A stretch of 50,948 bases of DNA from Methanobrevibacter sp. (GTDB lineage Archaea; Methanobacteriota; Methanobacteria; Methanobacteriales; Methanobacteriaceae). The position numbers were made by a program, and so were the translations under genes. The notes under the pieces were generated by a model. It had not been told where the DNA came from and did no database searches. It worked only from the letters and a program-made list of their open reading frames with translations. Shown here one piece after another: positions 50,649 through 50,864 of the stretch (position 1 is its first letter; every line of letters begins with the position of its first letter). Location: positions 1 to 50,948 of the forward strand of contig NZ_JAUNXX010000007.1 of the NCBI RefSeq assembly GCF_030539555.1. Direction: 5' to 3'.

Positions 50649-50864
50649 CATGTTTGCTAATTCTTCTTTTGGTAAAGATTCTACAGAATTAAGTATCGGT
50701 TTTGATATTTCCTGTTCCTATCCGTGAATTCCTTTCATAAAATCATTTACTCTAGATTTATTTGTTATTTTAAATTTTTCAAAAGTTTCATTGATAATTG
50801 TTAAGTTGTCTTTTGAAATTTCTTCATTATAAGAATTTCCGCTGTCATATTAAAAACCAATCAT
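50649..50864 (-). pseudogene. 5' half of the gene split by the IscB element
   Basis: It begins MIGF at 50864, meets TAA at 50850-50852, and continues YDSGNSYNEEISKDNLTII and NETFEKFKITNKSRVNDFM, with TAG at 50718-50720, then EQEISKPILNSVESLPKEEL ending ANM at the element edge. Two in-frame stops plus the insertion show that the gene was decaying already. The frame matches the 3' half at 48931-49118. Beyond 50864 only AT-rich promoter-like sequence is seen. Confidence 0.75.

Follow-up and report, generated by a model that had tools for sequence, protein, structure and literature searches.

A predicted flank-derived guide and TAM for an IscB element in a Methanobrevibacter-group archaeon, and altered flanks in related copies

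Background

Elements that carry IscB are reportedly explained by one model both in the paper that first described IscB and in the one on retention: the guide comes from the flank on one side, the TAM lies on the far side, and the empty site is cut again. That model is also the published one for TnpB (PMC8612924) and for HEARO and IscB (PMC9755519, PMC9640706). OgeuIscB (7xht, 7utn; PMC9640706) has the guide at the 5′ end of its RNA and the TAM 3′ of the target. The HEARO RNA family (RF02033) belongs with the HEARO nucleases (PMC9755519). In ISDra2 the target motif of the transposase TnpA is also the TAM of TnpB, the guide comes from the other flank and the donor joint is recut (PMC8612924).

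The window analyzed here, a stretch of 50,948 nucleotides, covers contig C126 in full; the contig comes from the 2.08-Mb draft genome of a Methanobrevibacter-group archaeon and contains the only IscB copy of that genome. Its IscB shares with OgeuIscB the PLMP/RuvC/HNH order, the catalytic positions and the predicted placement of guide and TAM; it differs in length (419 aa against 496) and in its predicted TAM (RTGAA against NNRR). Like the HEARO nucleases it comes with a full match to the RNA covariance model and is not beside TnpA, while the host here is of an archaeal genus and the guide is predicted from the flank. ISDra2 TnpB differs in having its guide at the RNA 3′ end and its TAM on the 5′ side of the target. 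The Geobacillus and Anoxybacillus IscB elements (L037, L038, L040) have 51–52% IscB identity and likewise ATGAA after the TAM end, but differ in host and in a left end that starts TCAACTACC. A text search for IscB together with Methanobrevibacter gave, in the accessible portions of the literature, a single cattle-rumen paper with each word once. The core reading of a guide taken from the flank is standard IscB biology; the unexpected part is in the relatives.

The IscB element

The element occupies window positions 49118–50647 (1530 bp) on the minus strand, as do all features of the element and of its host gene given below, and runs from TTAAACTACC at the omega-RNA end to ..GACAG at the TAM end; these ends are conserved at 13 left and 18 right junctions in the genus. 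The iscB frame (49123–50382) is open across 419 codons. Its product matches NCBIfam guided_IscB (NF040563; E 1.4e-109, 366.1 bits where the cut-off is 175), Pfam RRXRR (4.4e-64) and HNH (6.6e-11), and IscB chains of the PDB, in keeping with an IscB that has a split RuvC, an Arg-rich region and HNH; PADLOC models also matched its HNH part, with E from 5e-8 to 0.002. Comparison with a PDB IscB chain by phmmer found the catalytic positions retained (D, E, H and D of RuvC and the HH of HNH, residues named as in PMC9640706). Directly upstream of iscB on the same strand is a HEARO/omega-RNA scaffold (RF02033, 50405–50647), matched by cmscan over model positions 1–211 of 211 with 87.6 bits, the gathering score being 83. 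An alignment of 11 omega-RNA sequences has 66 consensus pairs, and in 20 of these both partners vary. At the TAM end a terminal hairpin was read from the sequence at 49137–49161, and the 3′ end of iscB overlaps it. This is a complete IscB/HEARO unit in a Methanobrevibacter-group archaeon, and a further case of known IscB biology.

Sharp ends, with AG|RTGAA at one and TTAAAC at the other, and the absence of target duplication give the element an IS200/IS605-type (ISC) anatomy. It contains no Y1 (HUH) transposase, and the PF01797 profile had no match in its own genome, which is 94.66% complete; matches above the cut-off were found in 9 of 67 genus genomes. The element is therefore described as IS200/IS605-type by anatomy and is probably not an autonomous member, being mobile in trans only or arrested in its movement. 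With no Y1 transposase found in its own genome, excision may no longer occur.

Guide and TAM

The left end at 50647 was fixed by three lines of evidence: the Rfam HEARO match, conservation among 13 genus copies (L001–L010, L012, L025 and L118), and the reading frame together with uninterrupted homologues. In these 13 left junctions no base from −20 to −1 exceeds 0.44 bits, against 1.22–2.74 bits for element bases +1 to +8; all elements start with TTAAAC except one with TTCAAC. The 11-sequence omega-RNA alignment has 16 unconserved bases, with conservation from column 17. Right flanks in the genus start with [A/G]TGAA in 17 of 18 cases and with ATGGA in the other, in the order AG|RTGAA (column counts use 17 junctions, the orthologous L006 being dropped). 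Weak HNH-only matches (L015–L024) were excluded from all counts, as were L027, whose ends were not recognized, and L014, whose right end was not; L031–L034 and L036 duplicate loci of G genomes and were counted once.

Junction conservation thus makes 50648 (T) the first base of host flank and ends the element at 49118. The host DNA at 50648–50663 is thereby the predicted 16-nt guide, GAATTAGCAAACATGT, directly 5′ of the HEARO match, and the predicted TAM is GTGAA at 49113–49117, where the right flank starts; guide length (about 16 nt) and the placement of guide and TAM are borrowed from OgeuIscB (PMC9640706). The original prediction had put the guide in the sequence immediately outside the left end, AGAATTAGCAAACATG. 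That string is the exact reverse complement of 50649–50664 and does come from the remnant of the broken gene, but it is one base off the register of the adjoining flank. For the TAM it had pointed to the other flank, beginning about GGTGAATCT. These letters are correct and RTGAA is indeed found there in 17 of 18 genus copies; the flank itself, however, begins at 49117 with GTGAATCT, the first G of the quoted string (49118) being the final element base, and the predicted TAM narrows to the five bases GTGAA. The use of flanking host DNA as guide accords with a complete HEARO RNA, an IscB with its nuclease residues and host DNA adjoining the RNA match on its 5′ side, in a position and register that, as far as sequence can tell, fit a flank-derived guide. 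We consider GAATTAGCAAACATGT with the TAM GTGAA the likely pair, which gives a precise prediction for an IscB of a methanogen genus: a 16-nt guide and a GTGAA TAM.

In the favored explanation an ISC-type element with IscB, probably non-autonomous, entered a gene of a Methanobrevibacter-group archaeon at the point where GTGAA begins, leaving that motif as the start of its right flank. By analogy with known IscB and TnpB systems, transcription of the host gene running into the element would yield an omega-RNA carrying GAATTAGCAAACATGT at its 5′ end. IscB with this RNA would cut the uninterrupted site, where the guide match is followed by GTGAA, whether that site arose by excision or lay on an empty chromosome copy, and repair from the occupied copy would restore the element; the occupied copy would be spared, its guide match being followed by TTAAA. 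We hold with good confidence that this guide-from-flank and retention explanation applies to the window element.

Interrupted gene and insertion sites

The flanks of the element belong to one gene. Its 5′ remnant (50648–50848, start codon at 50848) was aligned by tblastn with homologues L043–L046; the first 10 residues are kept and then the gene jumps to residue 279, a loss of about 268 codons (seen at 50815–50848), and the remnant has an in-frame stop. At the junction of this internal deletion is ATGAA (50823–50827), for which a short-repeat deletion is equally possible. The 3′ remnant (48951–49117) has 90% tblastn identity to residues 340–378 of L043, a homologue of 396 aa, and a frame change near its end. 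Neither the host gene nor L043 has a Pfam family above cut-off, the host gene has no NCBIfam family, and its homologue matched no PADLOC model. The original prediction of a disrupted host gene stands in that both flanks are from one gene, but that gene has also decayed to a pseudogene through extensive deletion and carries lesions besides the insertion. "Disrupted gene" is apt for the DNA and not for a proven function: in a remnant so decayed, the insertion need not have inactivated a functional gene.

A TATA-like CATATATAAG (50918–50927, minus strand) about 70 bp upstream of the remnant start codon is a possible source of a guide transcript. Right behind the interrupted gene a small ORF is present in three diverged tandem copies (48191–48892, minus strand; 39, 46 and 44 codons) that have MI(I/F)KSKN close to their starts, and the two of them that were searched match no Pfam family. 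Further along, a 532-aa ORF includes a 54-bp tandem repeat (46080–46225; 2.7 copies, 98%).

Eleven independent insertion sites were counted in the genus (window, L002, L003, L004, a RhuM-family site, L007, L008, L009, L010/L029, L012 and L025). At all nine classifiable ones, judged by eye, the element is in sense with its host gene, L002 lying just upstream of the start codon and not within the gene. RTGAA in ORFs is itself found more in sense than antisense (582 against 298, 880 in total), with a sense-strand background of 5.3 per kb; nine of nine by chance has p ~0.024, a post hoc value.

The element could instead be inert, making an omega-RNA without a host-derived guide or nothing at all, with the flank a mere landing site. 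The genome yielded no transposase, the host gene has decayed, and a promoter scan was at chance (9 found, 7.8 expected), though it covered sigma-70-type promoters and archaeal promoters lie outside it. Against this, iscB is open over its whole length with conserved residues kept, covarying pairs of the RNA scaffold are maintained in the genus, and the in-sense orientation holds at every classifiable site; we judge inertness unlikely.

Empty site and other targets

With the element taken out at T|GTGAA, an open reading frame runs through the junction, and its residue spacing is that of uninterrupted homologues: ATGTCTGAATCT (L043), ATGTCAGAATCT (L044) and CTTTGTGAATCA (L050). At the nucleotide level the homologues read AATATG-TCT-GAATCT (L043), AACATG-TCA-GAATCT (L044) and AATCTT-TGT-GAATCA (L050), so that the TGT-GAA of the predicted empty site is identical in L050. 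The predicted empty allele is AACATGTGTGAATCT and the occupied one AACATGTTTAAACT. The check by empty sites that had been proposed thus succeeded in part: uninterrupted homologues match the joined-flank spacing, while an empty allele of the same species was not found in the 67 genus genomes or in viral_contigs, the latter giving no match to the exact empty site. Among the 67 genomes only G030 has a site within three mismatches, with two in the guide (TAM-proximal positions 5 and 8) and CTGAA replacing GTGAA. By analogy this site should escape cutting, because in OgeuIscB mismatches at positions 1–14 abolish it (PMC9640706).

The window copy might also have lost host DNA at one end, so that its flanks are not true neighbors, as for the copies in G034, G042, G018 and G039. 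Such copies do occur in the genus, and this same host gene has a second deletion with its junction on ATGAA; still, once joined, the flanks agree exactly with L043–L050 in residue spacing, and the reading is quite improbable.

A search of its own genome for the guide followed by NTGAA, with up to three mismatches, returned the element itself, where the bases after the guide are TTAAA and there is no TAM, and one other place with three guide mismatches and TTGAA. The original prediction had raised a guide that matches another locus, and no second RTGAA-flanked match is present in this draft genome. In principle any RTGAA-flanked match could serve IscB, but the assembly, from which about 5% of the genome is missing, has only that one other place, without RTGAA; re-use of the guide against a different locus by a domesticated regulator or defence is hardly to be expected.

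Altered flanks in relatives

The flank-guide and retention explanation that we favor for the window can be compared with the other genus sites. Flanks are neighbors in uninterrupted relatives at four of the 11: the window, L009 (compared with L099 and L100), L025 (L163 and L165) and L012 (five N-terminal homologues). At two, the RhuM-family site and the G039 site, they are not. The arrangement of guide match then right flank is thus not general: it holds at four genus sites and fails at two. Because the flanks at those two are not neighbors, the TAM of the guide's target there is not the right-flank TAM; in the uninterrupted gene the guide sequence is nonetheless followed, on its 3′ side, by a TAM or TAM-like motif.

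The RhuM-family gene (Pfam 4e-25) has the identical right-flank site ATGAA(A) in G042 (L086), G034 (L085) and G018 (L118/L087). In G042 the left flank ends at CCAATGAGC, which is followed in homologues by ATGAA in 10 of 11 rows and by ATGGA in one (one of the 11 rows is the interrupted G018 copy itself); by eye on these rows, about 115 bp are missing between the two sites. From G034 another 781 bp are absent, immediately beside the omega-RNA end, and the next native bases there are AGGAA. G034 and G042 are sister species with the right flank unchanged and different predicted guides. It is more likely, from sequence comparison, that they carry one inherited element; independent insertions are disfavored in that element identity (96.2%) equals flank identity (96.2–97.0%). 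Short-repeat slippage was also considered for the 781-bp difference and rejected, the junction having no shared letters. The left flank of G018 reaches 13 nt further to the right, to a point at which some homologues have NTGAA, as ATGAA (L120) or CTGAA (L117, L119, L121).

The G039 element is on two contigs that overlap within it, with L010 at the left and L029 at the right. In its host gene (L096/L097; homologues L099–L110) the left flank ends after the gene start and the right flank begins about 390 bp onward at ATGAA; at the left edge some homologues have ATGAT or ATGAC and others ACGA.

Tentatively, and with considerable doubt, we suggest that guides change in place, a deletion from the omega-RNA end to another TAM-like site supplying a new guide; the decayed window gene, with its ATGAA junction, may record one such deletion followed by element loss. 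The non-neighboring flanks would be accounted for by deletions that are anchored at the element end and select TAM-like sites, which a Y1 transposase might do. Alternatives are recombination between two copies within one gene and, at G042, at G039 and at the ATGAA junction of the window host gene, short-repeat deletion. The imperfect motifs AGGAA (G034) and ATGAT/ATGAC (G039) weaken the case for TAM-picking deletion. A profile search found no Y1 transposase in G034, G042, G018 or G039, so such an agent would have been lost or would lie outside the assemblies. In the literature searched, which includes few subscription papers, and in the accessible portion of PMC12558985, replacement of a guide through deletion was not described. 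These relatives form a natural series, one inherited element with different predicted guides, in which the turnover of transposon guides could be studied.

A third site with non-neighboring flanks is probable in G032 (L003). On the left this element adjoins the C-terminus of a surface-protein gene that is repeated, and at this place GTGAA is found in 4 of 29 rows, one row being the interrupted copy. Another copy in that genome, L026, has a right flank, GTGAAGGTC, that is the expected end of such a surface-protein gene. The left flank of L003 (contig C265) and the right flank of L026 (contig C163) fit together as one surface-protein gene end, by recombination between the copies or by assembly error.
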